DNA from: Ianthella basta
Taxonomy: Eukaryota > Porifera > Demospongiae > Verongiida > Ianthellidae
Length of the DNA stretch: 64,000 nucleotides
Direction of reading: 5' to 3'
NCBI GenBank assembly: GCA_964019415.1
Contig: OZ025874.1
Location: 2,184,512-2,248,511, forward strand
In this document: in pieces, positions 5,601 to 52,450 of the stretch
How positions within the stretch are numbered: position 1 is the first letter of the stretch
How the letters are laid out: every line of letters starts with the position of its first letter
Notes under the pieces: model-generated
Database searches by the model: none
What the model saw: only the letters and a program-made list of their open reading frames with translations
What the model was told of the DNA's origin: nothing
Program-made: the position numbers and the translations under genes

Positions 5601-8600
5601 TTATAGAGGTGGTCGTTTAGCGGGGTTCCACTGTTTAATTATTTCTTACATGGCTATACATGTATAATTATTTCATATTTTGTTTGTGTTGAATTAATAG
5701 ATGAATCATTGATTACAAGTTCTGTGGCTATCACTACCGATCGCCCACAGCCAAAGTCGCCTGACAGTGGAGTGGACACTGAAGGTTTGTCTTGTGTGTT
5801 CACCAAATTGTTGTTGTGAGGTGATGTAATGGGTAAGAACTAAGAAAGAAGTCTTTGCTCAAGAGTATGAGAGAAGCTTTAGAGCTGAAATTACTAATTC
5901 TTTGCATCAGGATTTTTCACTGTGAAACCAGCTTACCTGAATCACTTTCCAAACTCAGCTTCAGAGTCCGCTACTGATGTCCGAAATTGTTAGCAAAGAA
6001 TTTATTTACAAGTGACCGCCAATGGTGTCATTATGCAAGAGCCGAACCATTACAACTGAACTGGGCTGGTTGTGCTGTTGATAATTTCCTTGTGCTCACA
6101 ATTGGCAGCTAGCTAACTAATTGAAACTTAAATGCACAGCAGTGTGCTAGCTACCTGCAATGAATGGATTGCCTTTTACTTTGGCCTGCAGCTACTGCGC
6201 GGTACCTTTTCCACAAATTTAGAACTCCTCGCAGATGCCATTTTTCACTGCATGAGTAGTCTGGCGCGCTAGCCCCAACTTCCTGCCCCCGATTGCGCAA
6301 TCGGGGCAGGAAGTTGGGGCTAGCGCACCAGACTACTGCATGAGCTATTGTACAACTAGAGTAATGTGGTAGAGGCTCATGCTACGTTGTCTAGCAGGTT
6401 TATGAGGCGTTGATGAGCATTCACGTAGCTAAAAAGGAAAGTTCAAGTAAAACGTTTCGACCACGAGGGTCTTCATCAGTTTTGTATTCCTGTTTATGAG
6501 GCGTTGATGAGCATTCACATAGCTAAAAAGGAAAGTTCAAGTAAAACGTTTCGACCACGAGGGTCTTCATCAGTTACAAAACTGATGAAGACCCTCGTGG
6601 TCGAAACGTTTTACTTGAACTTTCCTTTTTAGCTATGTGAATGCTCATCAACGCCTCATAAACAACTAGAGTACTCATAGAGTACACACCCCGCGCTATC
6701 TAGCCTTATAGAAGCAAAAGTGTGAACAAGAAGATAGGAATGAAAGCATTAAGTGTACATAATGTAGCTATGACATGCTAGCTATGAAACACACGGACAC
6801 TGGGTTCATACGTTATACATAGTTAATACAGTGCAAGTAACAATAGAATGCTGTGGCCTATGTGTAGCTACCGGTATTTGGGCTCCGCCAATTTACATTC
6901 CTGGCAAAAATGGTGGCCCAACAGAAAGCACCACTTAGTTGGCAAATGCTGCAAACACCAATGGTATTGAATCGATTTGAAGGAGCTGGAGCCAGTTTTC
7001 CACCAGTGGCAACCCCTAAGTGGCGCTTACAAGCAGCGCAGGTGCCTTGATGTTGAGATATGCCGAAATGTGTGTCGAGGACGACTACAACATAACCACA
7101 GAACCGATCACTTTACCCCTTGCACAATTGCGCGGGGTAATAATGTTATGAGCTTCTGTAGTTATTTATAGTAGTATGTTAGGGACATCGCTTGGGGAAA
7201 CACCCTTCTCGTGATTTGCTGACCAGATTACTTATGTATATGTTACGCGCATACCTCCAACCTGCGCAAACCTCTATGCCCATATTTGTCCACTCGGCTG
7301 TCAGTCGAAGGAGAGAGAGATATTGGAGAGACAGATTGAGGGCGGCATGGGGGAAGGTGAGGAGTTTACCTGCCTATGACTGAGCCTACGAGTCTTCAGT
7401 CACAGTTGTTGTGAAGTAGCTTGCTTGCTAGCTTCGTTTGACTAACAAAAGATTGCAATTTAGAGCGAGTGGTTTCGAAAGGCAAGGAAAGTGGACAATT
7501 GCCCGCGCTGTGACTCAGCTATAAAGGTTATAAATTTTGCTAGAGTTCCTCGAAAAGCTCTGGATTTGAAGAGTACTAATTTTATCGATTCAAAGAAACC
7601 AAGTTTTTGTGTAGAAGCAGTTTTCGCCTGTCACAAAAACATTTGTGGCTACTCTTTTTGGCGATTACTGCAGTACTCTCTCCATTAGCTAACTTTAGCA
7701 CCTTTTAATATTAGTAGGTGCGCTGTGACAACTTACACTATACTAAATAAATGTCTGTTACAGACCTTCAGGTAGGTATGGGCACAGATTCATTCTTCTA
7801 TTAATTCAACCCATTAGCTTATCCTATCATTGAATGTGTTAGTCAGCTGTATTATCTTGTGACTAGTTTAATAGGCTGTAGTGTACTTTCTACCACTCCA
7901 CAGATAACTCAGCAGGCTCTGAAGCAGGTAAAATACTGCAGAAATTCAGAGAGAAAATTTTGAGTGATGTGAATGCCAAAAGGTTTGCTCCAAATTTGAG
8001 ACGTCAAGGGATCATAGCAGAGGTGACTGAGACTGACATTGATCGAGCAAAAGACTCAGAAACGGCAAATGAAATACTTTATGACCACTTACACAAGGAT
8101 TGTACGAGTGATCAGATTTTGTTGCTGTCTAGAGTACTGATGGACGTTGATGCTGGCTTTGGCAATACAAGGCAGCTTGGCAAGCTACTGAGCACAAGTT
8201 TCCACGGCCAGGGTCCTCCAGATGCTGGTGGGTAATCACTTGAATGTGGTATAGTCATTTAGCAGGTGCTTTGCATGTGTGCCTTCTCCCAGTAATGATA
8301 TTCATACCTAATGTAAGAATATTAACCTATTTCCATGCCTATACATGACACGTTGCGATGTTGTATATTAACCCTATAGGCTCGAACTTTAAACTTCGCG
8401 CCATGCACTCAGTACGTGGAGTTAAAATGACGTTGCACCAAGACTAAATGACCTGAGCCACATGCGCGCACTTGGTGGCGTTGTCACTGCCAGAAAGATG
8501 AAGATGATGTGAGGATAGTTCGACGCTGTCTCCGAGAATACTGAGGGCTCCTCGTTTGCCAGTTCAAAAACGTGTGCAAGTGCGTATGGACGAAGAACAC

Positions 8601-9599
8601 AAAATGGAGTAAGACAATGAGAACGGCGAGTTTCTGCATGCTGTAAAGCTTAGAGATTACTTATTTTCCCTCTACCATGTTCCATAGATTAGTACACAAT
8701 GTGACGTTGGTATTAGGGAGAACGCGAGCAAATATGTGCAAACTTTAACGGTTGTCTGCAGGCGTTGGGCGCTACAAGGACACAGGAAAAGGCAAGCCAG
8801 GTAAGGTTCAACCACTGCTGTAGGTCCTCTGAGAAAGGCAGTCCACTTGAAGATTTGTAGCAAAAGAAAAGAGCTCTTAAACTGTCACAGTGCCAAATTC
8901 TATGACGAGTAAACTCGTCATTCGTGCTTATGTGTTTACAAATTTATGACAAGTAAACTCATCATTTCACCTAAAGGGTTAAATATTGTTAACTGTATGT
9001 ATACTTATGTAATTAGTTCACACTCTTATTTCTTATGCATTTTTGACATCGTGCATATAGGCCTATTTTAGCTACAAATATGGGCAATACCGCAATCACT
9101 GAAATTTTTGTAACCATCATATCATGGTTTAATTTCGGCCACCGACAAATGTTACACCCCATGACCACAAAAGTATATACTTGTATATATAATCTAAGGA
9201 TGGCAGAATACAGATTTAGATTATAATAAAATTATAGTGGGCACAGTTGCGGCTATCTCAATGTAAAGCCAGCATCACTGGGAAAAAAATGAAATTTCCT
9301 GAAATATGTAACTACAGGAAATGTACAGGAAATGTATGAATGGCATTTCCTGTACATTTTGGTGACCAGGAAATGTCAAATTTCAGGTACATTTCCTTTT
9401 AAGTACAGGAAATTTATGAGTTACATTTCATGTACATTTCAGCAACCAGGAAATGTACAAATTTAAGATACATTTCCTGGAACAACATTGTACATGAAAT
9501 TTGAATTGCATTTCCTGTACCTTTCAGTGACTGCTCAATTTTAAATTTCATTCAATTCAATGTAAACTGATCATGATCCTGTCTCAGGCCATGTGTGTA

Positions 9600-9664
<65 letters not shown>

Positions 9665-12600
9665 CTGTCAGTGGGGCTTTGTTTGTGTTTGTCCTTGTGT
9701 GTTAACTGTGTGTTGAGGATAATGCTCTCTGTTTGTGTGACTGTACGGTTTCAGTGTTAGTCAGAGTACACTGCACTGAAGAGCCTCAAACAAGGCGAAA
9801 CAGCAACATGCTGTCTGCAGTTCTCTGCATTTGTGCCTGATGGATTGTGCAGTTGTTGAACAACTGGTACTGAGCACTGCTAATGTAGCTAAGAGTCGCC
9901 ACACTATTATTATACTCAGCATAATTATAAGACTTGCAAGAAGTGCTGCAGCTGCACTGCATGTCCAATTAATAACAATGATCGTCATTGCCCGGGGAAT
10001 TGGCTTTGGGGGGGGAGCGTTAGCTATCACTGTGACATGCGCTTGTCTATTTCCTTGTCTACATCAGTGTGCCCTCAACTGCCTTATAATTGTGAACTTT
10101 GTCTGCTTTAGAGTGTCATTGCTGTCTTACTTCACACACGCACGCACGCACACACACTTGCACATGTCTAGCCAGGTACAAAAGGAAGTACATGTACATG
10201 TGCACAGCCCTTTAGACGTATCCAAACCAACCGGGAGCGGTCCTCTATTTCCGTGGTAGAGCTTGTCCCCTTAGACTTCTGCCTTTCCAAGGCAAGCTAT
10301 ATCATCCAATACACGACGAAGAAACACGCGGAAAAGCAAAGATGAAATCGATCCCGACTTCGAGAATCCGTAAGCCGTAGTGGCGGCAGCCATGTTTTAT
10401 TTTGTCACGCGCTATCATGTGGTCAATCGGCCAATGGAATCAGTAGCTACACAATTTCAAATGCGTTTTGCGATGTGGGCGTACACTGAAGGGCTGCCTC
10501 TCTCCGCTGCTGGTTGTTGAAAAGGACACTATAAGTAAGTTGTAGCTTCTTTTCGCACGCTGTAATCCTACTACGCATGCCAGTGAAATCGACCACTTAT
10601 TGTGTCCCTATCCTCAGCAAATATCCTCAAATTGTGTCTCATGCAAGTATAGCTAGCTAGCTACACGGCTTGTATGTCTCTCTGTTCCTTCTTACGCGAC
10701 ACATTTTGTAGCAGAGACTACGGTACATACGTGCCTGAGTAGCTTTGTCCTGTACATAAGTAAATGTGACATTTCATTGGTCCACCATTTGTACTGTACG
10801 GTCTGCATGCAGTGTCTTGTGCCTGAAGCTTGTGGCAATAAGGAGAGACAGCTAGATTGTCCTCCTGCTGCACTGTACACCACATTGTGAGGCAGATGAA
10901 CTTGCTGTCTGGATCAGCCAAGTCAACAGGTATGCAGGTGCATGTGTCTGTCAGTCAGGAAGTGTTCCCCACTTTTGTGTTCGATTCCAAGCGTGTACAT
11001 GCAGTTTTTACATATGTAAGTTTCCATTATGTCTGCAGGTCACTGGAGGTGGCTGATGTACACTACACCACAAGTGCATCCCGTACTCCAAATGTCACCT
11101 CACTGTTTCTAATGTTGAAGGTGGGCAAAGCTGCAACCTATAGATCAGCGTCAGCTGAGTAAGCACTGCTGTGCATATCTCTACATGTCTCTCTTCCTTG
11201 CCCATGCAGGAGGACAGTGCATGGACCCATGCATTAATCATATGGGACTATTGTATGACATTGTATGGCTATGCAACTGTGGATGGATGATGACCTTAAT
11301 ATCATGAATTGCTATGAAAAAGATGGAATTCAACAAGTAAGACTACAATGTAATTAAAGCTTATATCCCATATATAGATGCCATGCATGCAAGATATATC
11401 AGACAAATGCTGTGTTTTGGATAAAGTTATGTTCAACAACAACATATGCCTCTAAATCCAGAAAATTCCTTTCTGCAATCTGCAGGAATGCAACTTTTCC
11501 ATTGATAAGGATTTGGAATCAATGCCAGCATCTTCTGACATGATCGCACATGGCAGACGTCTATAATGGTGAAGAGTGAGCGAAGACGTGTGCCCTCTTC
11601 CTTGGCACTCGCCTCGGGTCAAGACCATGCTGGACTCAATTGACTGCAGAATTCAGCAGGGCAAGGGTGCTCTAGCACAAGAAGAGGGTTGCATTGGGAG
11701 AGCCTTCTAGCCAGCTGAATTCCACTTCTCAGCCACCATGGACAATCATTTAGTGAAACTTATAAGCTGAACTGAGTGCCTGGTACATTTACTTTAGTTC
11801 AGTTTTTCTTTACGGTAGTTTTTGGTACATTTTCTTTAGTTTTGTTTTACTTTATGGTAGTTTTTTGACTAGTATGCACTTTGATTGCATAATTATGTAT
11901 GTTCAAAAGCGAATAATTGCAGTAAATTAAACTAAACGTTTTATGGCATGTCAGTGCAGCATGAAATGTACAGGATACATGGCATTTCCTGCATAACCAT
12001 GAAATGTACCCAACACATGGAATTTTGGTGAGTACAGGAAATTGTATCTGAAACGAGCCCTGTCCTGTATACAGGAAATGTCACCGAAATTTGTACATTT
12101 CCTGAGAACCGTCATGTACAGGAAATGTGGGGTTTCCTATACATTTCGGGTACCAGGAAATTCCATCTATTTTCCAGTGCATGCAGTTGGGAAGTAGCTG
12201 TACGAGAAATACGTACTTGTCTGTGAACATGAGCCATGAAATACTCTAGCCATGCAGGTATACTGTTGCTAGAGATTTCCCTCAGAAGCACAATTCACAG
12301 TAAAGTGATTGGAAGAGCAATAACCTCTGTCAAACTACCTATATAGTGCTGATAATACCTGCACTTTCAATTCGAACTATGCTGTGTATAAGCATGGACT
12401 GAGTTTCTTGTTCACTACTGTAATGGCCTGTGTAGGTATACAGCAAATGCTATAGTGACCCCTGTGGGTCTAGCTGGAAGCCCATGCATCTTTCCACTGT
12501 ATGTACCTCAGTAGAACCATCTTTTGCAGTTCCCATGAACAGCAGTCCAATTTAGATGCAGAATATCAGTATTCTGGTGGGCATTGTCATGTAATATGAC

Positions 12601-15600
12601 TAACTGAATGCCCGCCCTTCGGGTGGATTTCCAGTCTACAGTCAGTAAATTAGGCGTTTGAACAATCAAAAGCGTCCATTTAATTGGGAGCATTCCGTAG
12701 ACTTGTTCCGAAAAACTCCATACGTACAGAATTTACATATGTCAATCTACATCATCTAAAGGAATATCAGAATAGCGAACAGAAGGAATAACGAACCCAC
12801 AGGTTAGGTTGGAATACTGCTGAGCCGACTGCTGCCTCTTCCAGACTGTCCATGTAGAGGTCAGCAATAGTGGGTGAGAGTGGTGAGCCTACTGCTGTGC
12901 CATCTACCTGCTCATAAAAGAAATCTTCAAACTGAAAGTAAGAGGATCATAAGCACAGTTCGACAAGTTCCACCAGCTGTGGTGCTGGGATGCTAGTTCT
13001 CTCGGTAAGGGATTGGTCACTGGTGAGTCTCTCCTCTGTAACTCTGAGTGCCTCCTCAATAGGCACCTGAGTAAAGAGGTTCTTCACATCAAAACTCCCC
13101 ATGTGGTGCTGAGGTGTTTGTCCGTACTCCTCGAATCTTATCCACAAATTCTGCTGCGTTCTTCACTGTGTATCCATCTTGGCCTGTCAGTGGGGTAAGG
13201 ATACATGCCAGTTCCTTTGCAATTCCATAGCACAGGGTAGCCTCGTACCCAGTCCCTATTTCCATTCTGACTTCCACTTGGGAGGGAAATAGGGCCTGGT
13301 AACATTAGTGGACCAAGCCGTTGACATCCATGACGTCACAATCCACGTGACTTTGGACCAATTGGGAAGTAATATTGTGACACATCTCTTAAACTGTGCC
13401 ACAGACGAGGCTTTGGAAGGCAATTACGTACAGCTGTAGATTAGCACTAAGGTCCCACCTTGATTTGGCAACAAGGAGAAGTTGTGTGTACCTTCTTTGG
13501 TGGGAAAGATGTCTTCGTAAGATCCTACGAATTTGGGTCGACTTCCAGAGTCAACTGTTTGTGTTGGGCTACCTCAATAACAGCCATCAAGCTACACAGA
13601 AGATGTCCAAGTTGCCGATGCCCTTCTTGCAAGCAAACTCGGAGATATCGTCGTTCTTTGCAGCAAGGCCGGACAGATATGCCAACCATTTGATGATTTT
13701 GCGCCTGCGACTAGCAACTGTGAAGAGTGCTTTCCGTTTTTGCCATCTACAATCTTTTAGCGGCTCTCGGCAAACAAGGTGAGCTGATTCCCTCCAGGAT
13801 TCAATTATTCTAGCTACGTACTGCTAGTGTTTAAGTCACGTGCATGATTCTGCAATCTGATTGGTACCCCCCAAAATCGTGGGGCGGAAGTCAATGGCTT
13901 GGACCCCCCAATGTTGCCAGGCCTTATTTCCCTCCCGAGCGGTAGTCGGAATGGAAATAGGGATTGGGTACAAGGCTAAGCACGGGGAACCCACAGCTGA
14001 CACAATGGGTCGCATTGGTACATGATCCTTGTGGATCTTAGGTAGGCCGTACTTAATCTTTATTTTCTTGGTTGTATTTTATGTAACTTTATTTATTACA
14101 CTAAGTCACAGTAAGATTTGCAATTTTTTACCTTAAATAGACCACCAACCCTAGGCCAACTTCAGCTCAAATTCAATTACTTAAATAATTTCTCCCAGGC
14201 GTGCCATTTTCTTCAGTCAATTCTGTTGATTTCCTGCCATTTTACTTCCTTTTAGTGTATTGGGCGTAGGAAGTAGTTTCAATAAGGGGGGGGGGGGGGC
14301 TGTAGTGGTACGATAAAGGTTTGCGAGCGGAGGGGGCAAATTTTTTTCTATTGTGCAACACCTGCCCCTTGCACAATACAGAATGGAGCAGGATTGTGGT
14401 GCGGGACGTGCACTAGGGGCTGCACTGGCTAGATAAGCGAGACTATATTGCCGGGCATTCTACAACTTCAGACTTCAGTACAACCAAGAGACATCTAACC
14501 TACAGAAGGCACTTACCTACCTGGCGAACGCGCCATAGAACTGTGGGTAAATTATCCTACTGCTCCCCATCGTTCATGAGCTACAGCTGACGGAGAAGAA
14601 TAAGAATAATAAGAATAAGACTAAACACGAAAAGAGGCGACAATACTTTCTGCAGGAGGGCGCACTGGTGCTTGAAAGTAAGGTTAGCTCTGTAAACTGT
14701 ACAGCCTCCCATCCTTGCAAGCGGTTTCTTTTGTCAGTTCTTGCTTCTGTTCAGGAGCAGCGCTACTTTTTGTTCATGTTACAGCATAAAATAACCACCG
14801 TCATTCCTACATAGACAACACTACCATGCTGTCTGATAGTACTGAATGAAAAGGTTTTTGAGCAATTCATGCAACATAGATGTCATATAACAAATCAGGA
14901 AATTTTGACCCGTGGGTCTTTGTCAGCTGAACAACTGTTGTTCAGCTTGAACAAGAGTTGCTCAGCTGACAAAGACCCACGGGTCGAAATTTCCTGATTT
15001 GTTATATGACATCTACGTTGCGTGAATTGCTTAAAACCCGTTTCGTTCACGTATGATGCAACAATGAGCCTCTACAATAATATCATAAATAATACTGTAT
15101 GTATCACATCAAGTTCAAGTGTTGCAACATTAATTTGCCGCACTCCAGATGTCACCCAGTTATCATGGTATTCAATTCAATTCAATTCAATAACCAAAAT
15201 GGATACATCTCCAATACTGGAGGTCATCCCTATACTTATACACTGATATGTTAGCATGGCAAGTAGTTAGTTATACGATATAGAAGCTATTTAAAATTAT
15301 CTGTCCATCTTGAGCGTGGTCTTCCTCTTGGTCTCTTCCCCTCCATCTCTCCAACAAAAACTTTCTTTGTTAACCTCTCATTGCTCATTTCTTCCAGTCT
15401 AACCCTCCACTTCTCCTGCCTTCTCTTCACTGCATCCAAAACACTTTCTTGTCTCAACTTCTCCCTAATTTCTACATTTCTCATCCGATCCAACCTAGTC
15501 ACACCTTCGATCTGCCTCAACACCTTCATCTGGGTGGCCTGCACTTTCAGTTGCTGCTGCTTAGATAGAGTCCACGTCTCACAACCGTACAATAATGTTG

Positions 15601-18600
15601 GCATCACTGTGGCATTCACTACTTTCAGCTTAGTGCTCATGCTCAATTCCTTCCTTCTCAATACTACATCATTCAACCCTATGATCACCTGTGTTGCACC
15701 CCCAATCCTTGCCTCTACTTCCTTCTCCATTCTCCCATCACTACTAATCATCACACCCAAGTACTTCATTACATCTACCTGTTCTATTACCTCTTCATCA
15801 ATTTTGACTTCACATTCCTCTCTCTTCCTTGCAATCCTCATCACTTTAGTCTTTCTCCAATTCACCCTCAGCTCCCACCTGCTCAGCACATCACTCATCA
15901 CCTGTAAATTGTGCTGTAGCCCTTCCACTGATTCTGCCATTACCACCATGTCATCCGCAAAAAGGAGTAGCCCTACATCACCAGTTGACAACTTCACCTC
16001 CCTCAGAAACTGCCTTCTTGCCTCCCTCGTCACACTGTCGATAAACACATTAAAGAGCCATGGTGAGAGAGTGCAGCCCTGCCTCACACCTCTATGCACC
16101 TCAAACAACTCTGATTCCATTTCCCCAACTTTCACCTTGGCCCTTCCGTTGACATACAGTGCCTGAATTGCCCTTAACAGCCTTCCTTTCACCCCATAAG
16201 CATATAGCACTTTCCACAACTTTTCCCTGCTTACATTGTCGTATGCCTTTTCCAGATCCACAAAAGCCATGTATGTTTTCTTATCTTTCTCGATGGTTTT
16301 CTCCACAATTTGCTTGACTGCAAAAATTTGGTCATTGCACCCCCTGCCAGTTCTGAAACCTCCTTGCTCGTCCATCACTTTGTCAACTGTTGCCATCTTC
16401 ACCCGCTCATTCAATACCCTCGCAAACACCTTACCAACAGTACTCATTAGACTAATTCCTCTGTAGTTTGCACACTCTAGTCTGCTTCCTTTCTTGTGGA
16501 CTGGTACTACCACTGCATTCTTCCAGTCTCCAGGGGCTACCCCCACTCTCCACACCAAATTGAATACATCTGCCATCCACTCTATCACCACTTCACCCCC
16601 TGCTTTTAACATCTCAGGCAGAATCCCACAAATACCAGGTGCCTTTCTCATCTTAAGCCTCTTCACCCCATTTCTCACTTCCTCCCTCATTATTCCCATA
16701 TCATCCTCCTGCATTGCCTCACTACACTGTGTGTCTGAGAGGGGCTCTCCCACTTCATGGAATAACTCTTCAAAGTGCTCTTTCCACCTGCCAATGACTT
16801 CACCCCCCTCTGACAATACTTGACCATTCTTACCATTAATGCGAGTCATACTCTCCTTTGTCATCCTGTTTCCATTCACCCTAGCCCAAAAACGTGGCTG
16901 ATTGCCTTTTGCATCCTTCTCCAACTCCTTCCCAAACTGCACCCACTCATCATTTTTAGCCTTTCTGACTAATTTCCTTGCCTCTAGCTTTGCCTCATTG
17001 TACCTTTGCCTAGCTTCTACATTGCCAGTGTCCAGCAGCCGCTTATACAGCACTTTCTTCTTTTGCACTGCACTCTTCACCTCCTCATTCCACCATCTTG
17101 TTTTCTTTACCTGTCCACTTCTCCACCTCATTGTCCCACACACCTTCGTTGCCGCCCCCACTATACCTTCTTTCAACTCCTTCCATGCCAATTCAACATC
17201 CTTTCCTAATGCACACCCACCAGCTCTAGCTTCCTCATACAGTTCAGCAATTACTGCCTGGTATTCTCTTCTCACCCTATCATCCTTCAAATTGCGAATT
17301 TTAATCTTCTGTCTCCCCCTCACTTGACTACTGTTCTTCACTCTCCTAGCCTTCAGCTTTATCTTCATCACCACTAGGCAATGGTCACTTCCTATTTCTG
17401 CCCCCCTCACTGCCTTGACATCCATTACCTGCTTCCTAGCCTCCTTTCCCACCAAGAAGTAGTCAATAAGGGACCTGAGCCCTCTGCCTCTACATTCCCA
17501 AGTGTACTTATGGATTCTTTTGTGTGGGAACCATGTGTTAGAAATCCACAGATTGTACTCATTACAAAACTGCAGCAGTCTCCTCCCATTCTCATTGCAC
17601 ACTTCCTCACCATACCTACGAAGGACTTCACCCCAGATACTTGTATCATCACCCACTCTAGCATTCATGTCTCCCATCACAACCAATAAGTCACCACTCA
17701 CCATTCTTCCAACAGTCTCTTGCAGCCTCAAGAAAAACTCATCCTTGCTAGCATCGCTACAGTCCTTGGTGGGCGCGTATACTTGCACCACAGACACCCA
17801 CACGCCCTCTATCTTCAACCGTATCATCACAATTCGTTCGTCTACACACCTCCATTCCTTCAAAAACCGACCGAATCTTTCTGACAGCAAAATCGCCACA
17901 CCTGCTTTCGCTCTACCTGTCTGCACGCCCGAATACACGCACGTAGTATCCCCAATCATCCTCATACCGTTTCCTCTCACTTTCGCTTCACTGACACCCA
18001 ACACCTCCAGCCGATACTTCTTCATTTCAGCGACCAGCTCCTGTTCCCTTCCGTTCAACGTTCTTACATTCCAACACCCGAATCTACTTATATCACTCAC
18101 TAAATCACTATCATAGTTCTTAGCGCTCATCTTTCACCGTCCTTAGTTTGCTGGCAGGCTGTCTATGACCATCACCCAGCGCAGCTGCCTTCCGCCATTT
18201 TTTATCATGGTAACAAGCATATATAATGGTGACTACAGTATTATTATATTTATGATACTTTTTATGGTGCTTTATTCTGCTCCATATCAATGCAGATGTG
18301 GAAGTGGTGAAAACAGACATGAATCTTACAGAAGAAGAACTACATGCCCTTCAGACTGTTGGTAATGACAATATTGTGTGGCAAATGGTTGGTGTGACCG
18401 GAGTGGGAAAGAGCTTGTTAGGGAACTTCTTACGTGGAATCGATGAATTCATGGTTAGAGGTCCAGGTGTTGCCGGCTCTGTGACTGATACAGTTCAAGT
18501 AGGCTGCTCTGTCCTGAATGGCCAGCGATTGTGCATCGTGGATACTCCTGGCTGCTTTGATACTCGGCGTGGGAGAATGCAGAATGAAGAGGCTGAGAAC

Positions 18601-19620
18601 CTGGCAAATGATGCAGCCCATTTGGCTGTGGATCTCAGCAAAACTATTCTGATGGCTCGGCATGGCATTCACGCTTTCTTGGTGGTAGTTCGAGCTGACG
18701 TAACAGAATTGGTCAGCACCACAATGCTGTTGGACCTGCTTGGCATTATTGGTGACTATTGGAACCACACCATTGTGGTGTTCACCCATGGAAAGAGGTT
18801 TGATGAAACAAGTGAGGATAAGAAACACACTGCACTGGAGGTAACACTAAACAGTCCCACCAACTGCCCTGAAGACTGGAAGACTCTCATTGAGAAGGCT
18901 GGTAATCGGTATGTGATTGTTGAGTCAAAGGAGTGGCGAGATGACAAAGAATACCACAAGAGAAAGGTGGAAGAATTTATAAAGAACTCTTCTGCCATCG
19001 TTTCTTCTCATGGCCCATATAATGACGCATTGCTTTCTTTGGTCCGGGTTCACATTGAGAATGCCAAGCTTGAACTACGCCATGATTTCAGTAACGTGGA
19101 CAGTCCCGAGGCACAGGTTGCGGCACTGCAGATTGCATTTCCAAACATCAAAAGCTCGCTTCACAAGATTATTAGCATGAAGCTGGCTGGAGGGGTTGAT
19201 GTTGAAGCAAAGGAAGAAGAATTGTTGAAAGCTCGCAGGCGAAATGACCAGTTGCATCAGCAGGTCCTGAAGGAGCAAGCAGAAAAGCGCAAGGCTAAGG
19301 AAGCAGAAGACAGAGCAAGGGAGGAACAAAGAGTGGCCGAGGAACAAGCAAGAGTGGAACGTGAGGCAGCAGAGAAGGCTAGAAGGGAATTGGAAGAGTA
19401 CCTAAAGAAGCCTACATTTGCGGAAAGGGTTGTAGAGACACGTATTACCCGTGAAGGATTCCATAAGTGGCAGTATAAGTACACTGCTGAGGCTGTAGAT
19501 GTGGCTACAGGGATAAAGGCTGAGGCTAAGAATTACAAGTCCAAAGATGGTGCCAAGGATCATGCAAGAACCAATCTCAAGGCCATTCTACTGGAAAGAG
19601 GCATCATCCGCAAAGATTGA
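2689..19620 (+). CDS. CARD-TM-stalk-AIG1 GTPase-dsRBD-like protein, long form (unit A)
   Basis: Spliced model: exon 1 at 2,689-2,698 (MTS + G), exon 2 at 3,065-3,640, exon 3 at 5,701-5,784, last exon 18,296-19,620; all introns are phase 1 and the sum is 665 codons. Exon 2 encodes a CARD-like domain (SVEAILQDVKDDF ... VLADVDRGFGRTKEVGRLL), a hydrophobic segment near FISFAVSVVAIPCAAVVV and a Trp-rich stretch (PPWPF, MCWEGMPWTW). Exon 3 is a 28-residue Ser/Thr/Pro stalk. The last exon holds the GTPase: P-loop GVTGVGKS, G3 DTPGCFD, a charged coiled coil, then the dsRBD-like end. In unit B the CARD and TM parts are separate exons; here they are fused. Whether exon 3 truly joins the distant GTPase exon across the 7.3-kb alternative exon and transposon-filled introns is unproven. 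Confidence 0.55.
4978..5154. mobile_element. TA-flanked MITE, copy 1
   Basis: The ends CAGTGAAACC and GGGGTTTCACTG are inverted repeats flanked by TA on both sides (4,976-4,977 and 5,155-5,156), as expected for Tc1/mariner-type MITEs. Internal text repeats the phrases GTGGTCTTA and GAGGTGGTC in both directions. The copy at 5,457-5,633 is nearly identical. No coding capacity. Confidence 0.8.
5457..5633. mobile_element. TA-flanked MITE, copy 2
   Basis: Same 177-bp element as at 4,978-5,154, in the same orientation about 300 bp away, with ends CAGTGAAACC and GGGGTTCCACTG. The near identity suggests recent insertion or local duplication. Confidence 0.8.
6255..6340. repeat. Long near-perfect hairpin palindrome
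   Basis: Two arms of about 40 bp (GTAGTCTGGCGCGCTAGCCC ... and its complement) meet at GATTGCGCAATC with essentially no loop and about one mismatch. It could extrude as a cruciform. Probably a miniature foldback element; no protein coding. Confidence 0.85.
6399..6663. repeat. Three copies of an about 85-bp motif, one direct and one inverted
   Basis: The motif runs from TTTATGAGGCGTTGATGAGC to CTTCATCAGTT at 6,399-6,477 and 6,493-6,575, then follows at once in inverted orientation at 6,579-6,662. Read in the latter direction it holds CTGATGA, a GACC/GGTC stem and GAAAC, the order seen in a hammerhead ribozyme core and in pseudo-LTRs of Penelope-like elements. A cleavage-site stem could not be found. 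Confidence 0.8.
7347..19620 (+). CDS. CARD-AIG1 GTPase-coiled coil-dsRBD-like protein, short form (unit A)
   Basis: Alternative start: exon 1 at 7,347-7,356 (MGE + G, donor gtgagg), exon 2 at 7,904-8,227, then the shared last exon 18,296-19,620; the total is 553 codons with phase-1 introns. Exon 2 is a second CARD-like domain (ILQKFREKILSDVNAK, ETDIDRAKDSETANEILYDH, VLMDVDAGFGNTRQLGKLL). The GTPase has P-loop GVTGVGKS, SVT switch region, DTPGCFD, and THGK in the G4 position, typical of AIG1/GIMAP GTPases. A coiled coil (KARRRNDQLHQQ ... ARRELEEYL) leads to a final 70 residues with TGIKAEAKNYKSKDGAKDHA, which resembles the second half of a dsRNA-binding domain. This form has no membrane segment, so it would be cytosolic. 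Unit C has the same type of first exon (MEE + G). The intron of about 10 kb is filled with transposons. Confidence 0.6.
8228..9275. other. Intron sequence without recognised features
   Basis: AT-rich single-copy sequence after the second CARD exon. No exon with good splice sites, no inverted repeat ends and no tandem repeat longer than a few units were seen. Confidence 0.5.
9276..12179. mobile_element. Non-autonomous CACTA-like (EnSpm/CMC) DNA transposon
   Basis: The ends are CACTGGGAAAAAAATG (left) and the inverse of CACTGGAAAATAGATG (right), flanked by a CAT target duplication (9,273-9,275 and 12,180-12,182). CACT-type ends with 3-bp duplications are the hallmark of CACTA elements. Both subterminal regions (9,285-9,530 and 11,955-12,165) are packed with GGAAATGTAC-type motifs in both orientations, also typical. 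The 2.9-kb body holds a (GT)n tract at 9,601-9,662 and only short frames, none resembling a transposase. Confidence 0.7.
9601..9662. repeat. (GT)n microsatellite
   Basis: About 60 bp of GT with one early interruption, inside the CACTA-like element. Confidence 0.95.
12180..12789. other. Spacer with no confident gene
   Basis: A 61-codon minus-strand frame at 12,508-12,693 contains LHDNAHQNT, faintly like the catalytic-Asp region of mariner transposases (LHDNA.P.T), but nothing around it supports a transposase. Otherwise featureless. Confidence 0.4.
12790..14065 (-). pseudogene. Penelope-like element reverse transcriptase fragment, split by a MITE
   Basis: Read on the minus strand, 14,062-13,979 gives KIKYGLPKIHKDHVPMRPIV, the hallmark YGLPKIHK motif of Penelope-like RTs. 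After the MITE, 13,237-12,790 continues with IAKELACILTPLTG, VKNAAEFVDKI, SFDVKNLFTQVPIEEAL (RT motif A), then YFQFEDFFYEQVDG and AVGSPLSPTIADLYM. The frame shifts several times and both protein ends are missing (no YADD region, no GIY-YIG domain), so it is dead. The TIR-flanked insertion at 13,240-13,976 cuts it between the GSP and AKEL regions. Confidence 0.8.
13240..13976. mobile_element. TA-flanked TIR element inserted in the Penelope-like RT
   Basis: Long inverted ends start GCCTCGTACCCAGTCCC on the left and end GGGATTGGGTACAAGGC on the right. They continue inward for about 85 bp (CCATTCTGACT, GGGAGGGAAATA.GGCCTGG). A TA duplication flanks it (13,238-13,239 and 13,977-13,978). The core has no recognisable transposase. 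Removal rejoins the flanking RT homology, which proves insertion. Confidence 0.82.
14066..15159. other. Spacer with G-run and hairpin
   Basis: Contains a G-rich run at 14,286-14,300 and a long palindrome at 14,861-15,031 (annotated separately). No exon was identified. Confidence 0.5.
14861..15031. repeat. Long inverted repeat with a hammerhead-like core phrase
   Basis: Arms of about 70 bp (AGCAATTCATGCAACATAGA ... TTTGTCAGCTGA and its complement) flank a short spacer that itself repeats GTTCAGCT. One arm reads GCTGACAAAGACCC.CGGGTCGAAA, the same layout as the CTGATGAAGACCC...GGTCGAAAC motif at 6.4-6.66 kb, so the two palindromes are probably related. Confidence 0.8.
15170..18201 (-). mobile_element. 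RTE-like non-LTR retrotransposon, copy A
   Basis: A full-length element on the minus strand: 5' leader of about 70 bp (starting AAAAATGGCGG), one 947-codon ORF, 3' UTR of about 115 bp and a (TTGAA/GAATT)n tail. Perfect 10-bp target duplications TTATCATGGT lie at 15,160-15,169 and 18,202-18,211. A single ORF, short UTRs and a short tandem-repeat tail are typical of the RTE clade. It inserted in the intron just upstream of the unit A GTPase exon, antisense to that gene. Confidence 0.92.
15287..18130 (-). CDS. RTE-like endonuclease/reverse transcriptase, copy A
   Basis: The ORF of 947 aa begins with an apurinic-type endonuclease domain (residues about 1-260): FGCWNVRTLNG, GVSEAKVRGNG, VMGDMNARVGDD, SLIDYFLVG and GSDHCLV, which supply the catalytic Asn, Glu, Asp and His. 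The RT domain (about 480-770) shows PVHKKGSRLECANYRGIS, GFRTGRGCNDQIFAVKQ, AFVDLEKAYDNV, GVRQGCTLSPWLFN and FADDMVVMAE, with the catalytic DD intact. The C-terminal region contains MKYLGVMIS, LLYGCETW and ends RGRPRSRWTDNFK. There are no stops or frameshifts. Together with copy B it differs at about 2 percent of residues, so it was probably recently mobile. Confidence 0.93.
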   Translation of the reverse strand: MSAKNYDSDLVSDISRFGCWNVRTLNGREQELVAEMKKYRLEVLGVSEAKVRGNGMRMIGDTTCVYSGVQTGRAKAGVAILLSERFGRFLKEWRCVDERIVMIRLKIEGVWVSVVQVYAPTKDCSDASKDEFFLRLQETVGRMVSGDLLVVMGDMNARVGDDTSIWGEVLRRYGEEVCNENGRRLLQFCNEYNLWISNTWFPHKRIHKYTWECRGRGLRSLIDYFLVGKEARKQVMDVKAVRGAEIGSDHCLVVMKIKLKARRVKNSSQVRGRQKIKIRNLKDDRVRREYQAVIAELYEEARAGGCALGKDVELAWKELKEGIVGAATKVCGTMRWRSGQVKKTRWWNEEVKSAVQKKKVLYKRLLDTGNVEARQRYNEAKLEARKLVRKAKNDEWVQFGKELEKDAKGNQPRFWARVNGNRMTKESMTRINGKNGQVLSEGGEVIGRWKEHFEELFHEVGEPLSDTQCSEAMQEDDMGIMREEVRNGVKRLKMRKAPGICGILPEMLKAGGEVVIEWMADVFNLVWRVGVAPGDWKNAVVVPVHKKGSRLECANYRGISLMSTVGKVFARVLNERVKMATVDKVMDEQGGFRTGRGCNDQIFAVKQIVEKTIEKDKKTYMAFVDLEKAYDNVSREKLWKVLYAYGVKGRLLRAIQALYVNGRAKVKVGEMESELFEVHRGVRQGCTLSPWLFNVFIDSVTREARRQFLREVKLSTGDVGLLLFADDMVVMAESVEGLQHNLQVMSDVLSRWELRVNWRKTKVMRIARKREECEVKIDEEVIEQVDVMKYLGVMISSDGRMEKEVEARIGGATQVIIGLNDVVLRRKELSMSTKLKVVNATVMPTLLYGCETWTLSKQQQLKVQATQMKVLRQIEGVTRLDRMRNVEIREKLRQESVLDAVKRRQEKWRVRLEEMSNERLTKKVFVGEMEGKRPRGRPRSRWTDNFK

Positions 19621-27044: not shown

Positions 27045-27342
27045 ATGACTTCTGGTGAGCAATTGTCCCGTCTCGCGCGCTCAGACTATTTTTATATTCA
27101 CCATCGACCACGTATAAGGGTTGAACTAGAGAAGTAGAGGAGTAATAAATTGGGTCACATGGCCATTGGGAGCGTTGTGCCAATACGCGGGCTCCTATTT
27201 ATAGAAACGAGCTAAGACTGGAATAGTGATTTTGCCTCCGAAATGATTCGGCTATGTTTGCTGTTGATGTTGATTGAGACCGGAAGTTTCCAATAGCTAC
27301 ATAAATTTAATCCTAATTAGACGGAAAAATACTGCACAGTGT

Positions 27343-27434
<92 letters not shown>

Positions 27435-30400
27435 GGTTGCACATACAGAATTGCTCGTTCCACTTCAGAATGCACTGGTGCTGTTCAGCATACAACTCTG
27501 CAGGGAAGATGGCAGCCTTCGGGAGCGTTGTGCCAATACCATAGACCCTACAAGGGTCAATGGCAATACGCAGGTTCCTATTTATAAAAACGAGCTAAGG
27601 CTGAAATAGTGATTTTGCCTCCGAAATGATTCGGCTATGAGACCGGAAGTTTCCAATAGCTACATAGATTTAACCCTATTTAGACTTCTGTAGCTCAGCT
27701 ATGTGTGGTAATGTTTGTAGTGGGAGGAGCACAACAAATGTTGTTATAGTCTCTTGTAACTGATTCCTCTTTTTGTTGGTAAGGATGTTGGTAAGATAGG
27801 CACATATCATCATTGTTACAAAAGAAACGATTGAGAACAGTTGCTAGCGGCCATTTTCCGAAATTATCCGCCCAGGGCGTTCCAGGCCGAGACATGAAAC
27901 CATAATTAGAAAGTCATGTTCCACAACTTCTGGAGATTGCTAGGCAAGTCTGGAGCAGAAGGTTCGCCATTACAATATTAGTTAGCGCTTCGCGTTGACA
28001 GTTACCATTTTCAAAAAAATTATTTCATTCGGTTGTATGGTCTCTCTCTTTCTCTCTCTGGCCGACTAGAGCAAGGCCGACTAGCAATCTTCTATGGCAT
28101 GGGCATGCCATAGAAGATCTGTGCTCATGCGGAGATATAACATAGCATCTGGTAAGTTATTGTCCTGTCTTACGCACCCAGACCATCTTTATCGGCGGCC
28201 AAGCATAAATATAGTTGAATAAGCCAGATGTTCAGTGGTCACTGGTAGCTAACTAATTTGTCACATTCCTGAGCAGTATGCGCTCCTAGTCACACAACAA
28301 GTCACATGCCCCATAGTCATTGAAGTGGACAGCTCGTTTCCAAACATTCTGCACTCCGAAATGACTCAATCAGCGCTACTGTTGAGAATGTTTGAGGCCG
28401 TAGTTTTGTACGTAGATTCGACATCTGTAGCTCAGCTAACTAGCTATGTGTGATATTATTTGTAATGGGAGGAGGGCAACAAATGTCCTTGTAACCTCTT
28501 GTAACTGATTCCTTTATTGTGCATACTATATGTCTACAGATAATTCAGTGGAGGCAATTCTACAAGAATTCAGAGCTGCTGTTTTGAAGGATGTGAATGC
28601 CAAAGTGTGTGCTCCAGAGTTGAGACGTGAAGAGGTAATAGCAGAGGGCACAAAGACTGACATTGCTCAAGCAAGATCTGTGAAAGAGGCAAATGGAATA
28701 CTTAATGACTACCTACGTGAGAATTGCACGTTGGATCAGATAGTGATGCTGTCCAAAGTACTGATGGATGTTGATAATGCCTATAGAAGAACAAGGACAC
28801 TTGGTCAGCGATTGCATGCAAGAACTCAGGGCCTCGGAGGTGGTGGCACACATCAGCAAGAAAGCCAAAATAGATCACAAATCCACCAATCACTGCCCGA
28901 GAATGAAACAAGCGCAGGTGAGGATTCCTTCATGCATGAGGCAATAAAGTATCTGTAGCATCATGTCCCGTGCATGCAATACAATAGTATTAGCACCTTG
29001 CATATGGACAGGTGTTAACATTGTTGCATAGGGCACCCCATGTAAAGTACGTGTAAGTGTGTTTGTGTGCATGATGAAACCATGTATTGGTGATCAGTAG
29101 AAGATTCTATAATTAGAGAAGTTCCCTATCCTTAAGATATGCAAGCTTCTATAACTGTTACTTTGTACTCTGTTACTCCAGGTAATAGCAACAGAAGAGC
29201 ATCTCTGATCTCAGATTCCCCACCCCCATCAACTCTACGACCTGCACGTGTTCTGCTTGTTTTTGCTGTGCTCATTCCATGTGCTGCTGTGGTAGTCAAG
29301 GGACTACCCATCTGTCTACCCCCATGGCCTTTCACTAACATCTGGCAGCGTCAGATGTGCTGGGAAGGCATGCCTTGGCCCTGGGATACCAGTATGGAAG
29401 AAAGTGAACTCTCCACAGCCACTCCAGGTACGTGCATGTTTGCAGCCAGTACCAGTGTATATTGATAGGCATACATATATAGACCATGTGTGGGATGACT
29501 TAAATACATAATGTTGTCAAGAGGCATGCATCATAATGAAAGGCATATTGCTGGATTTACCATCCTATTACACCAGGGTTTGTGTCACAGTTGGTCAGTT
29601 GTAGCTACATACATGTTTTTCCCATAATGAAACATCATACATAGCGCAAATGCCCCCTCTTCTCAAATGCATCACATTTACTTGTAGAAGAATCCTTAGA
29701 GCTATATGTACTGTACAGTGGGATATATTAGCAGGCATGAAATTTGGCTGATTTGCTATAAAAGCTAGGCTTTTGGCAAGTTAAAATTTGGCAGATTCTG
29801 CATCCTAAGTACCGGTGATGTCATTGAATATGGAACTGTTCACTCTGGTTTCATCTCATGTTAGCAGTGTACTTTAATTCATATCTTAGTTCTCTCTTTA
29901 GGCATCACTCTCATTGGTGGTGTAGCTGATGTATGTGCTGTGAGTCGCACTGTGCACAGTGTCAATTATGTAAGAGCCAAACCATTTCAGCTGAACTGGG
30001 CTGGTTGTGCCATATTGGTTGCAGGGACCAAACTGATTTAAGTAAACTAATGAATGTACAAGTGTGAATGTTAACCCTAACTGGTCTTGGACCACTTCAA
30101 ATCAGGTTAATGTTAGCACACATTGTGAACACCCCCTATATAGTCTCGTGCACCAGACCTTCTGTGGAAGGGTCTGGTATTATTGCGTACATTAACTTCA
30201 AATTGTGTCTGTAGGACAAGATCCTGTCCTGGCCAATCAGATTTGCTGATTGCTATTATGACATCAGCCTAAATTTAAAGACATGGCATTGGCTCGCTCG
30301 AAGGATATCATTGGACGTACTGCGACTTTACTCCAGTACACTGCAACAGCAGAGCAAGCCATACAAGCAAAACAGAGTGAACTCGTGCACTCCATACTTC

Positions 30401-32364
30401 ACTCCCCACAGTGCCACCCTACCTAAACATTGTGCAAGAGTTAACCACAATTACATGATAATAGTATTCCTGTGGTACAAGTCAGCTTACACAATGTTAC
30501 CACACCCTTTCACAGGGGGGTCTAGCACGTGAGAATTATAGCCATTGCATATATATTTTTTGTGTACAGATGAGTCATTGAGTACAAGTTCTGTGGTTAA
30601 CGTTACCGACCACCCACAGCCAATGTTGCTTGACAGTGGATTGGACACTGAAGGTTTGCTTTGCATGTTCTCCTAAGTGTTGTGGATATAATGAAGAGTA
30701 TAACAGGTCTTTGCTTGGGCTTTGAAGCTCTATAAAGTGAAAAATTTCTTCTTTGTATACTTGTGGCTATTATATTGCTTGTGTACGTAGATACACCATT
30801 GAGTACAAGCTCTGCGGCTACCACTGCCAATCACCCACAGCCAACGTTGACTAGCACTGTAGTGGACACTGAAGGTTTGTATGTCTTGCTTGCTTGTTCA
30901 CCTAGCTATTTGTGCACTGGTAGATTGATGTTATCAATTCTTGCTTCCATCTTGTAACATGGATGATATGAGCCAATCATGGACCTTTGTTAGCACTCTG
31001 TTCATCTGCTCCTGGATATACATACAGATGTACAGATGGAGAAACCAGATGTGAAGCTTACAACAGAAGAGCTGCATTCCCTTCAGACCATTACTGAAGA
31101 TGATCTTGTGTGGATAGAGATTGGCGTGACTGGAGTAGGGAAGAGCATGTTAGGGAACTTTCTCCTTGGAAAGCATGTGTTTGAGGTCGGAGGTGCCCTT
31201 GTTTCTGTGACTGATAAAGCTCAAGTGAACTGCTCTGTGCTGGACGGACATCGCATGTGCATCGTGGATACTCCAGGCTTTGGCGACACTCATCGCATGG
31301 GAACACAGAACACTGAAGCGGAGAACCTGGCCAATGATGCAGCCCATTTGGTTGTGGAGCTCAGCAAGACCATGCTGATGGCAAGGCATGGTGTTCATGC
31401 TTTCTTTGTGGTTGTTCGAGCTGACAGCAGAGAATTGTTTAGCACCACAAAGCTGTTGGACCTGCTAGATATTCTAGGCAACTATTGGGACCACACCATT
31501 CTAGTGTTGACCCATGGAAAGGGGTTTGACAAGACAAGTGAGGATAAGCAATATGAGAAATTCGAGGCAATGTTAAACAGCCCCGGCTGCCCTGAAATGT
31601 GGAAGACTCTTGTTGAGAAAGTTAACAAGCGATACGTGATTGTAGAGCCTGAGGATTGGAAAGATGACAGAGCATATTATGCAAGAAAGGTTAAGGAGCT
31701 TAAAGAGCACTCCTCTGCCATTGCAGCTGCTCATGGTCCATACAACGACACGTTACATTCCTTGCTAAAAGAATACATTGAGACTGCCAAACTTGAGTTG
31801 CGCAATGAGTTTGAAGATATGGACAGCCCAGAGGCCCAGGTTGCTGCTCTGCAGGTTGCCTTTCAGAATGTCACGGCCATGCTGTACAAGCTCATTCGCA
31901 TTAAACTTGCAGGGGGAGTTGACACTGAGCTGTTACAAGCGATGGCTAAAACAAAAGAAGAAGAACTATCAGAAGTTCGCAGGCAAAGAGACCAGTTACA
32001 TCAGCAGTTCTTGAAAGAGCAGGAAGAAAAGCGCAAGGCTCAGGAAGCAGAAAATAGAGCAAGGGAAGCACAAAGAGTGGCCGAGGAACAAGCAAGGGTA
32101 GCACGTGAGGCAGAAGAAAAGGCTAGAAGGGAATTGGAGGAGTACCTAAAGAAGCCTACATTTGCGGAAAGGGTTGTAGAGGCACGCATTACCCGTGAAG
32201 GATTCTATAAGTGGAGGTATGTGTACATTGCTGAGGCTGAAGATGTGGCTACAGGGATAACAGCTAACGCTAAGAATTACAAGTCCAAAGATGGTGCCAA
32301 GGAACATGCAAGAATTAATCTCAAGGCTATTCTACTGGAGAAAGGCATCATCAGCAAAGATTGA
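27045..32364 (+). CDS. CARD-TM-stalk-AIG1 GTPase-coiled coil-dsRBD-like protein (unit B, complete)
   Basis: Six exons with phase-1 junctions: 27,045-27,054; 28,540-28,917; 29,182-29,427; 30,570-30,653; 30,791-30,874; 31,028-32,364. They sum to 713 codons (712 aa). Order: MTS; CARD-like domain (AILQEFRAAVLKDVNAK ... VLMDVDNAYRRTRTLGQRL); a hydrophobic segment (VLLVFAVLIPCAAVVV) with a Trp-rich PPWPF...MCWEGMPWPW stretch; two 28-residue stalk exons (TSS..., HPQP, VDTEG); GTPase with P-loop GVTGVGKS near residue 300, SVT, DTPGFGD and THGK; a coiled coil; and a C-terminal dsRBD-like module (TGITANAKNYKSKDGAKEHA). AIG1/GIMAP GTPases act on membranes in immune cells and plant defence, and CARDs recruit signalling partners. 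A membrane-tethered defence sensor is an inference. The start rests on ATGACTTCTG|gt being conserved in unit A. Confidence 0.72.
27055..28539. other. First intron of the unit B gene with local duplications
   Basis: Holds a (GT)n tract at 27,341-27,436, a stray minus-strand copy of the LYAEQ-type exon (27,441-27,497), and partial direct repeats of flanking sequence (27,160-27,310 vs 27,525-27,700; the pre-CARD acceptor region at 27,670-27,775 vs 28,415-28,539). A second exon-1-like site at 28,141-28,150 has ATA in place of ATG. A short palindrome TCTTCTATGGCATG / complement sits at 28,088-28,117. Confidence 0.6.
27341..27436. repeat. (GT)n microsatellite
   Basis: About 95 bp of GT, adjacent to the stray LYAEQ-type minus-strand exon. 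Confidence 0.95.
30136..30540. mobile_element. TIR element in the TM-stalk intron (unit B)
   Basis: The left end TAGTCTCGTGCACCAGACC and right end GGGGTCTAGCACGTGAGA are imperfect inverted repeats, and inner CTGTGGAAGGGT/ACCCTTTCACAG also pair. The orthologous insertion at about 52,055-52,450 (unit D) has better ends (TAGTCTCACACGCCAG ... TGCGAGACCAG). The element therefore entered before the unit duplication. No coding potential. Confidence 0.55.
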
Positions 32365-35045: not shown

Positions 35046-37207
<2,162 letters not shown>

Positions 37208-45768: not shown

Positions 45769-47093
45769 ATGGAGGAGGGTGAGGAATTCAACTGTCTTTG
45801 AGCCTCTTGAAGTTGCAGTCAAGTAGCTATAGGCCTAGGTTGACTTTATTGTTGTATTCTCCTGTGACTAATTCAACCTCATATATACTGCCACTCCACA
45901 GATATCTCAGTGGATGAAATTCTACAGGAGTTCAAAGACGATTTTTTAAAGAATTTGAATGCCAAACACTGTGCATCAGAGTTGAGACGTCAAAATGTAA
46001 TAGCAGAGAGCACTGAGACGGACATTGCTCAAGCAAAAGATGCGAAATTGGCACGTGGAATACTTTATGACCACTTAAATGAGAATTACACACTAGATCA
46101 GATTGTGGTGCTGTCCAGAGTACTGAGGGATGTTGACAGAGGCTTTGGCAGAACAAAGGAAATTGGCAAACGATTGCATGCAAGAATCCATAGGCTTGAT
46201 GGTGGTGCTACTGATAGATCACAGCTAAACCCACCGCTGTCCCAGAGCAAGGCAAACACAGGTATATAAAATGCAGGTGTAAATTTAAGACAATAATTGA
46301 TAAGCTACACATGCATGCATGGCTATAGGAATTAGCTATAGAATGATGGGAAAGAGAAAACAGCAGCCAACATGCAGGATAAGAATCAAACCAGCGACCT
46401 CTAGATCTATCCTTCAGCAAGCTAGGCCATGGATGGCCATGCATATGCAGCAGCCATACGCATCAATCTATTCCCTTGGGTTTATTAAGCAATGGCGAGC
46501 ATGGGCATGCTCCATCCAGATCTCGAGCCTTTATTGTGGAAGTCCCATCCGGCCTGGCCCACATTGCGGATGATCAGTGCGCATTTCCTTGCTTAAGCTA
46601 TAACAACCACAACCACATGAGTACTTAGCGCATAAGAAGGGAATGGTTGCTCCATGGCTCAGCTGCATGGTTAAAAGTTAGCTTTACATGGAGATCAGAC
46701 CAGTTGACCACTGCCTTTCTCTTCCCCTCTTGATTGCCTCAAGCACAGACCATTTCTTTAAGCTTGCATGGCCCAGTCTGCATGCATGTTCTGCTCTATT
46801 CTCCTACAAATAATTCTATAGAGGCAGTAGAGAAGACCAAAAGGGAAGAGAAGGAGCACCCTATTAGGAAGCCTACATTTGCAGAAAGAGTTGTAGAGAC
46901 AGATATATCAAGTGGAAACTTCCACAGGTGGAAGTGGGTGTACACCGGTAAGGCCACTGATGTGGCTACAGGGATAACGGCTAAGGCTGGTAATTACAAG
47001 TCCAAAGATGGTGCTGAGAAATGTGCAAAAATTAATCTCAAGGCCATTCTACAGGAAAGAGGCATTATCCATAATGAAACTGATCACGAGTGA
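45769..47093 (+). CDS. Compact CARD plus dsRBD-like protein (unit C)
   Basis: Three exons: 45,769-45,778 (MEE + G, donor gtgagg), 45,902-46,261, and 46,822-47,093. They have phase-1 introns, sum to 214 codons and predict 213 aa. Exon 2 is a CARD-like domain (EILQEFKDDFLKNLNAK, ETDIAQAKDAKLARGILYDH, VLRDVDRGFGRTKEIGKRL). Exon 3 gives EAVEKTKREEKEHPIRKPTF and then the dsRBD-like module (FHRWKWVYTGKATDVATGIT, NYKSKDGAEKCAKINLKAIL). The GTPase and coiled coil present in units A and B are absent, and no GTPase exon remains between exons 2 and 3. This could be a short adaptor linking the C-terminal ligand to CARD signalling, or a remnant of a deleted gene. The intact frame and matching phases favour a gene. 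A SINE-like sequence lies in intron 2. Confidence 0.68.
46310..46450 (-). mobile_element. tRNA-derived SINE-like sequence
   Basis: On the minus strand, CCTAGCTTGCTGAAGGATAG resembles a Pol III A box region. GGTCGCTGGTTTGATTC about 15 bp further resembles a B box (GGTTCGANTC). The GATCTAGAGGT phrase also occurs, as GATCTGGAGGT, in the elements at 53.6-54.3 kb. No clear tail or duplication. Confidence 0.45.
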
Positions 47094-51191: not shown

Positions 51192-52054
51192 AAGTTATTA
51201 ACTCTTATACTTTCTTTTGCTGTTCCTATGATGGTCCTTCCATGTGCTGCTGTGGTAGTCAAGGGACTACCCATCTGTCTACCCCCATGGCCTTTCACTA
51301 ACATCTGGCAGCAACGGGTGTGCTGGGAAGGTATGCCTTGGACTTGGGGTACCGGTATGGAAGAATGTGGACTCTCCACAGCCACTCCAGGTACACAGAG
51401 TGATAGGCATCAATATAGACTATATTTGGGATCAATGAGTAGATACATACTGTTGGCAAGAGCATGACAGAAGGATCGCTGGATTTACCAGCCTATTACA
51501 CCAACATTGGTGTTGTAGCTATGTTTTTGCCAATAGTGACACATTATACATATAGCACAAAAGTGCCCTACTTCTCAAATTTATTGCATTAAATTGTAGA
51601 AGAATCTTTAGAGCTATAGCTGTATAGAGTGGGAATTATTGGCAGGCATGAAATTTGGCTGATTTGCTAAGAGGTCTAGGCTTTGGCAGGATTAAATGTA
51701 GCGGATTCTGCATCCTATATAATTACTAATGACATTCCACAATATGGCAATGATGGAGCACCATTGGCTCTGTGCGAAATGGGGCGTTTTCCAAACTTTG
51801 CTTCAAAAGTCTTTACTGATATCCAAAGTTGTGAGCAAAGGAATTTCTTTACTATTCAAGTGACCGCCAAGGTGTCAATTATACAAGAACCGAACCATTG
51901 CAACTGAACTGGGCTGGTTGTGCCGCATTGGTTGCATGGACCAAACTGATTAAAGTAAACAAATGAATTTACAAGTGTGAATGTTAACCCTAACTGGCTT
52001 TGGACCACTTCAAATCATGTAGGTTAATGCTTGCACACATTGTGAACACCCCCC

Positions 52055-52450
52055 TATATAGTCTCACACGCCAGTCCCCCTGCGGAAGGGTCTGGTATTA
52101 TTGCATACATCAACTTGTGTCTAGGACAAGATCCTGTCCTGGCCAATCAGATTTGCTGATTGCCATATGACATCAGCCTAAATCTTGAGACATGCTGTTG
52201 GCTTGTTTGAAGGAAATGGTTGGATTTACTGCTACTTTACTCGAGCACACTCTAAGAACAGAGCAAGAATGAGTCTTACAAGCAAACAAAGTAAATTCAC
52301 TCATCGCACTGCCTCCCTACGGGCAACATTGTGCAAGAGTTAACCACAATTACACAATAATTATATCCCTGTGGTACAGGTCAGCTTACACATTACTACC
52401 AAACCCTTCCACAGGGGGTGTAGCATGCGAGACCAGCCCTCTATATAGCT
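52055..52450. mobile_element. TIR element in the TM-stalk intron (unit D)
   Basis: Counterpart of 30,136-30,540 at the same intron position. The left TATATAGTCTCACACGCCAG and right GCATGCGAGACCAGCCCTCT plus ATATAG ends are imperfect inverse complements. Confidence 0.55.

Follow-up and report, generated by a model that had tools for sequence, protein, structure and literature searches.

A candidate CARD-AIG1 signaling switch in a tandemly duplicated gene family of the sponge Ianthella basta

What kind of protein is encoded at positions 27045 to 32364 of the DNA analyzed here, a window of 64,000 nucleotides from the sponge Ianthella basta (C7:2184512-2248511)? The gene in question, here called gene B, was originally predicted to encode a membrane-tethered sensor, possibly of double-stranded RNA (dsRNA), in which a CARD-like domain, an AIG1 GTPase, and a C-terminal module resembling a dsRNA-binding domain (dsRBD) are joined in one chain. 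We compared gene B with its relatives throughout the genome (209 Mb, 96 contigs). We consider it somewhat better than even (a probability of roughly 0.55) that gene B belongs to a tandemly duplicated innate-immune-type family acting as a CARD-AIG1 signaling switch, and we regard gene B as a candidate uncharacterized immune switch and not as a proven RNA sensor. The parts of the gene are as follows.

27045..27054, + strand: exon 1, 10 bases ATGACTTCTG, with start codon and GT donor
28142..28151, + strand: second version of exon 1, probably nonfunctional, ATAGCATCTG with GT donor (ATA in gene B)
28540..28917, + strand: exon 2, N-terminal CARD domain (residues ~4 to 103), then a Gln/Ser-rich linker
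29182..29427, + strand: exon 3, hydrophobic segment VLLVFAVLIPCAAVVVKGL (residues 153 to 171) and a conserved Cys/Trp/Pro-rich stretch
30570..30653, + strand: exon 4, Ser/Thr-rich stalk repeat of 28 residues
30791..30874, + strand: exon 5, second stalk repeat, 28 residues
31028..32364, + strand: exon 6, AIG1 GTPase (residues ~299 to 516), charged coiled-coil-like helix, and C-terminal module
32152..32361, + strand: the C-terminal module itself (KPTF...ISKD), beta-beta-beta-alpha, with a dsRBD/release-factor-GGQ-like fold

The predicted splice form contains five introns, all GT-AG, with every junction in phase 1, and encodes 712 residues (713 codons with the stop); start, end, exon number, phase, and length all agree with the six-exon frame that was first proposed. 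Exons 2 to 5 are 378, 246, 84, and 84 bases long, all multiples of three, so that any one of them could be skipped without loss of frame. In a neighboring copy, paralogue A, the N-terminal domain and the transmembrane (TM) segment lie within one open reading frame (ORF; window positions 3037 to 3666), and 7 of the 123 homologous proteins retrieved likewise fuse CARD and TM in a single ORF; the link between exons 2 and 3 thus has support beyond splice prediction. Gene B looks, from its sequence, like a genuine gene and not a chance assembly of exons. At the second copy of exon 1, the start codon is intact (ATGGCATCTG) at the matching place in paralogues L018 and L010, and the copy at 28142 to 28151 of gene B is probably a lost alternative first exon.

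The CARD-like character of the N-terminal domain held up in both predicted structure and profile comparison. The predicted structure is a six-helix bundle with a kinked first helix, as expected of a CARD, and hhalign aligned the domain with the CARD profile at a probability of 66 to 67 and a score of 29, which none of 150 shuffles reached; under the -glob option the probability was 35, weaker than in the default runs. Only 1 of 45 members reached the Pfam CARD profile (E 0.047), single-sequence searches of Pfam and PDB gave nothing useful, and the domain profile retrieved no CARD and one chance-level match from the PDB sequences. By eye, no place was common to the N-domain matches and the Pfam CARD matches listed. 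Fold comparison and hhalign, unlike the PDB profile search, detect the CARD.

The GTPase was identified directly: it matched Pfam AIG1 with an E value of 1.2e-18 and 67.6 bits against a curated cutoff of 27, and its closest solved structures are GIMAP4, 5, and 7 (PDB GIMAP4, E 6.7e-15 by profile). Gene B carries the G1 P-loop GVTGVGKS and the G3 motif DTPG; the P-loop was present in 12 of 13 copies read and DxPG in all 13. At the guanine-specificity motifs G4 and G5, the gene B residues aligned with GIMAP4 differ, and a shifted placement is possible. A helical, charged linker after the GTPase corresponds to the predicted coiled coil. The anticipated hydrophobic/Trp-rich segment and two stalk exons were also found: residues 153 to 171 have a Kyte-Doolittle value of 2.6 over 19 residues and are followed by the Cys/Trp/Pro-rich stretch (8 paralogous copies compared; further and partial copies also read), and both stalk exons are Ser/Thr-rich repeats, the number of which differs between paralogues. 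For a membrane-tethered sensor, a single span would put the membrane between the CARD and the GTPase; a hairpin, or isoforms skipping exon 3, would resolve this problem.

Gene B is one member of an array. The last 70 residues had 18 genome matches by protein search, 2 on C6 and 16 on C7, the latter all on the + strand between 2.04 and 2.46 Mb. AIG1 matches numbered at least 119 genome-wide, 15 of them in this C7 stretch, and N-domain matches at least 150 (150 of 559 candidates scored). We compared the window and loci L001 to L028 (within 2.298 to 2.468 Mb, this covers just L001 and L003 to L005). Every module match there was on the + strand, and the order N-domain, TM, stalk, GTPase, end module was kept in several runs; there were also solitary or partial modules, such as a lone TM exon in L026 and, in L012, a TM exon 1.3 kb upstream of a broken N-domain. 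Exon 1 (ATGACTTCTG) with a GTRA donor occurred at six other places (paralogue A, L018, L022, L011, L014, and L020) and as a variant in L009, and the phase-1 AG acceptor of exon 6 stood at the matching position in all nine copies examined, gene B included. Ratios of nonsynonymous to synonymous substitution (dN/dS; Nei-Gojobori, with nonindependent pairs) had a median of 0.29 for the GTPase exons (45 pairs, none above 1), 0.68 for the CARD (36 pairs, 1 above 1), 0.54 for the TM exon (36 pairs, 2 above 1), and 0.56 for the end module (66 pairs, 4 above 1). We read these ratios to mean that the GTPase exons are under purifying selection.

The family is also modular. CARD and end module occurred with no GTPase match between them in paralogue C, in L019, and in the C6 locus L030, and the single ORFs P0038, P0041, P0105, and P0109 fuse the CARD directly to the end module; on these grounds we take the two as the core. 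They are probably the minimal signaling unit, with the GTPase and membrane segment as a regulated add-on. Exons 2 to 5 are symmetric, with phase 1 on both sides. For this reason, alternative splicing or the loss of exons could lead to proteins that are anchored in a membrane or soluble, and with or without the GTPase, and such differing versions are present in the genome as separate genes. GTPases of the GIMAP/septin type oligomerize on nucleotide binding. We hypothesize that the end module would bind a protein or nucleic acid as its trigger or partner, that the AIG1 domain would oligomerize on nucleotide binding, perhaps together with the coiled coil, and that such clustering would gather the CARDs, which could then seed CARD-CARD assembly with the many other CARD proteins encoded in the genome. 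Because one type of CARD is combined with the end module in forms with and without the GTPase, the family offers a way to ask which part is the sensor and which the switch.

What, then, is the end module? Its AlphaFold2 (AF2) model (predicted local distance difference test, 88) is a beta-beta-beta-alpha fold with no separate helix 1, and its fold matches were dsRBD-like and release-factor-GGQ-like; TRADD-N (RRM-like) was not among the fold matches listed, which excludes nothing. None of 20 members scanned one by one had any Pfam match, and single-sequence searches of Pfam and PDB gave nothing useful. Hhalign -glob values, weaker than those of the default runs, were 1.1 for end module and release factor and 0.2 for end module and dsRBD, with other pairs at 0.04 to 1.1. 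The sequence leans toward the release-factor GGQ domains. It is possible, and we put it forward tentatively, that the module originated as a release-factor GGQ (RF-1) domain, lost the GGQ (found in 0 of 87 end module sequences), and now binds protein or RNA. Among the retrieved relatives P0001 to P0031, the module was read in the tails of 28 and not in P0014, P0021, and P0024; P0025 is incomplete. P0014 and P0024 are GTPase proteins with a polybasic C terminus ending in FLGIF at that place, and we read these endings as alternative tails in the family. In L029 (2157 to 3984), an ORF with repeated helical-looking motifs and a hydrophobic end is followed by an end-module exon and then, by eye, by kinase-like exons; the module may thus occur with other partners.

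It is unlikely that the array is mostly in decay and gene B an intact-looking but unexpressed copy. Several copies do show damage, namely, a frame change in the L009 CARD, stops in the L011 CARD and in L004, a split GTPase in paralogue D, loss of the P-loop in L001, and a shortened end module in L018 (at 8667), and gene B itself lacks the ATG of its alternative first exon. However, gene B is open over 712 codons, its GTPase gave dN/dS values of 0.23 to 0.56 against nine paralogues, and relatives at 45 to 48% identity (P0026 to P0031) retain the end module.

RIG-I-like receptors and MAVS signal through CARDs, and the proposal that gene B is a membrane-tethered dsRNA sensor, with the end module as a dsRBD and the CARD signaling as in those receptors, must be weighed against the module itself. 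Gene B resembles these systems in CARD signaling and a possible membrane platform; it differs in having no helicase, in its order and its GTPase, and in that RNA binding is a candidate function. The predicted dsRBD-like fold was borne out by the AF2 model, but membership in the dsRBD family was not: dsrm matched none of the 20 copies scanned, and hhalign comparison with dsRBDs (14 of the genome's 19 dsRBD matches) was at noise level, its score being reached by 5 of 150 shuffles and, with a deeper profile, by 10 of 120. dsRBDs contact RNA through a GPxH-type loop and a KKxAK motif. GP and KK.AK each occurred in 0 of 87 end module sequences; a partial [ST]K..AK was present in 47 of 87. Together with the lack of a separate helix 1 in the model, these results give dsRNA sensing by the module no support, and we find that proposal very doubtful. 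A novel receptor class, in which a GGQ-derived (or stripped dsRBD) domain picks up a danger signal linked to the ribosome or to RNA and relays it via the AIG1 switch to the CARD, membrane bound or soluble according to the symmetric exons kept, seems to us a comparably long shot. Least credible is the reading that CARD-TM and GTPase-end module belong to different genes, two or more, that follow one another by chance. Although CARD and GTPase never fell within one entry among the relatives retrieved (sets of 31 and 46), this is also to be expected if gene calling in a database treats each exon as a gene, and order, strand, phase-1 junctions, and intervening stalk exons recur in several paralogues, while CARD and end module are fused in single ORFs.

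How new is a CARD-AIG1 switch of this type? Among the open-access papers searched, we found none describing the full domain combination, none with both dsRBD and GIMAP, and none with GGQ domain, dsRBD, and fold together. The original claim that no protein with this full order had been described stands to that extent, but CARD-AIG1-coiled coil and CARD-AIG1-HINT proteins are already in print. In the snail Biomphalaria, an expanded AIG/GIMAP family includes DD-CARD, AIG1, and coiled coil, with predicted transmembrane segments in 12 AIG genes; like gene B, these place the CARD ahead of AIG1 and the coiled coil, and, unlike gene B, they are described, in the accessible text, without stalk repeats or a C-terminal dsRBD/release-factor-like module (PMC7053062). 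According to the same source, no AIGs are known from the sponge Amphimedon (PMC7053062). Lancelet GIMAPs, a lineage-specific expansion, also join an N-terminal CARD to AIG1, but a C-terminal HINT replaces the end module, and the available portion describes no TM segment or stalk; that AIG1 comparison included H. panicea homologues (PMC12373286). Death-fold expansions with TRADD-N in a sponge and in bivalves (the latter with TM forms, sometimes with an AIG GTPase) share with gene B the expansion in marine animals, a death fold with a small alpha/beta domain, and a variable C terminus; there, as far as the excerpted text goes, TRADD-N is the small domain and DED a frequent death fold, whereas gene B has a CARD and a beta-beta-beta-alpha module (PMC8195603). 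AIG1 proteins are reported from glass sponges in the text available (PMC10282587), and, in a partly accessible study of two sponges, CARD- and DEATH-domain genes are among the responders to microbial patterns (PMC6208332). The gene B family strengthens the case for repeated origin of CARD-AIG1 coupling in animals. Because the end module has no Pfam match and the CARDs mostly escape Pfam, such genes are probably undercounted. Elsewhere in the genome, C3 has three places (~1317410 to 1318817, 1333617 to 1335018, and 1351670 to 1353091) at which a Pfam CARD match and an AIG1 match share a strand and are separated by ~0.7 kb; these perhaps represent a second CARD-AIG1 family.

The window holds three further copies of the family.

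2689..19620, + strand: paralogue A, with exon 1 at ~2689, CARD+TM ORF at 3037 to 3666, stalk at 5700 to 5783, and GTPase+end module at ~18296 to 19620
45901..47090, + strand: paralogue C, a short form with CARD exon, end-module exon, and several candidate splice acceptors
51204..55113, + strand: paralogue D, with TM, two stalk exons, and a GTPase exon interrupted around an insertion and present as three pieces in shifted frames

No GTPase or TM match was found between the CARD and end-module exons of paralogue C. In paralogue D, the insert at ~53560 to 54300 that splits the GTPase exon carries similar ORFs in both orientations, and the copy ends in a hydrophobic tail (LGLVLGFGFGLVIAFCMTILLL) at the place of the end module of other copies. 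Two reverse-transcriptase-like ORFs of 948 amino acids (15287 to 18133, - strand, between the stalk and GTPase exons of paralogue A; 41851 to 44697, + strand) match at 928 of 949 positions, stop included; they presumably belong to the reverse-transcriptase family and are probably young retrotransposon copies. L003 (C7:2356623-2360252) and L006 (C7:2179107-2182736) are 98.5% identical over 3630 bases, and the N-domain matches at 2365066 and 2187575 have similar scores; the L003/L006 pair, with an offset of ~177.5 kb, would reflect either recent segmental duplication or duplication in the assembly. Window positions 35384 to 37207 contain a long tandem-repeat stretch in which several frames, in both orientations, stay open.
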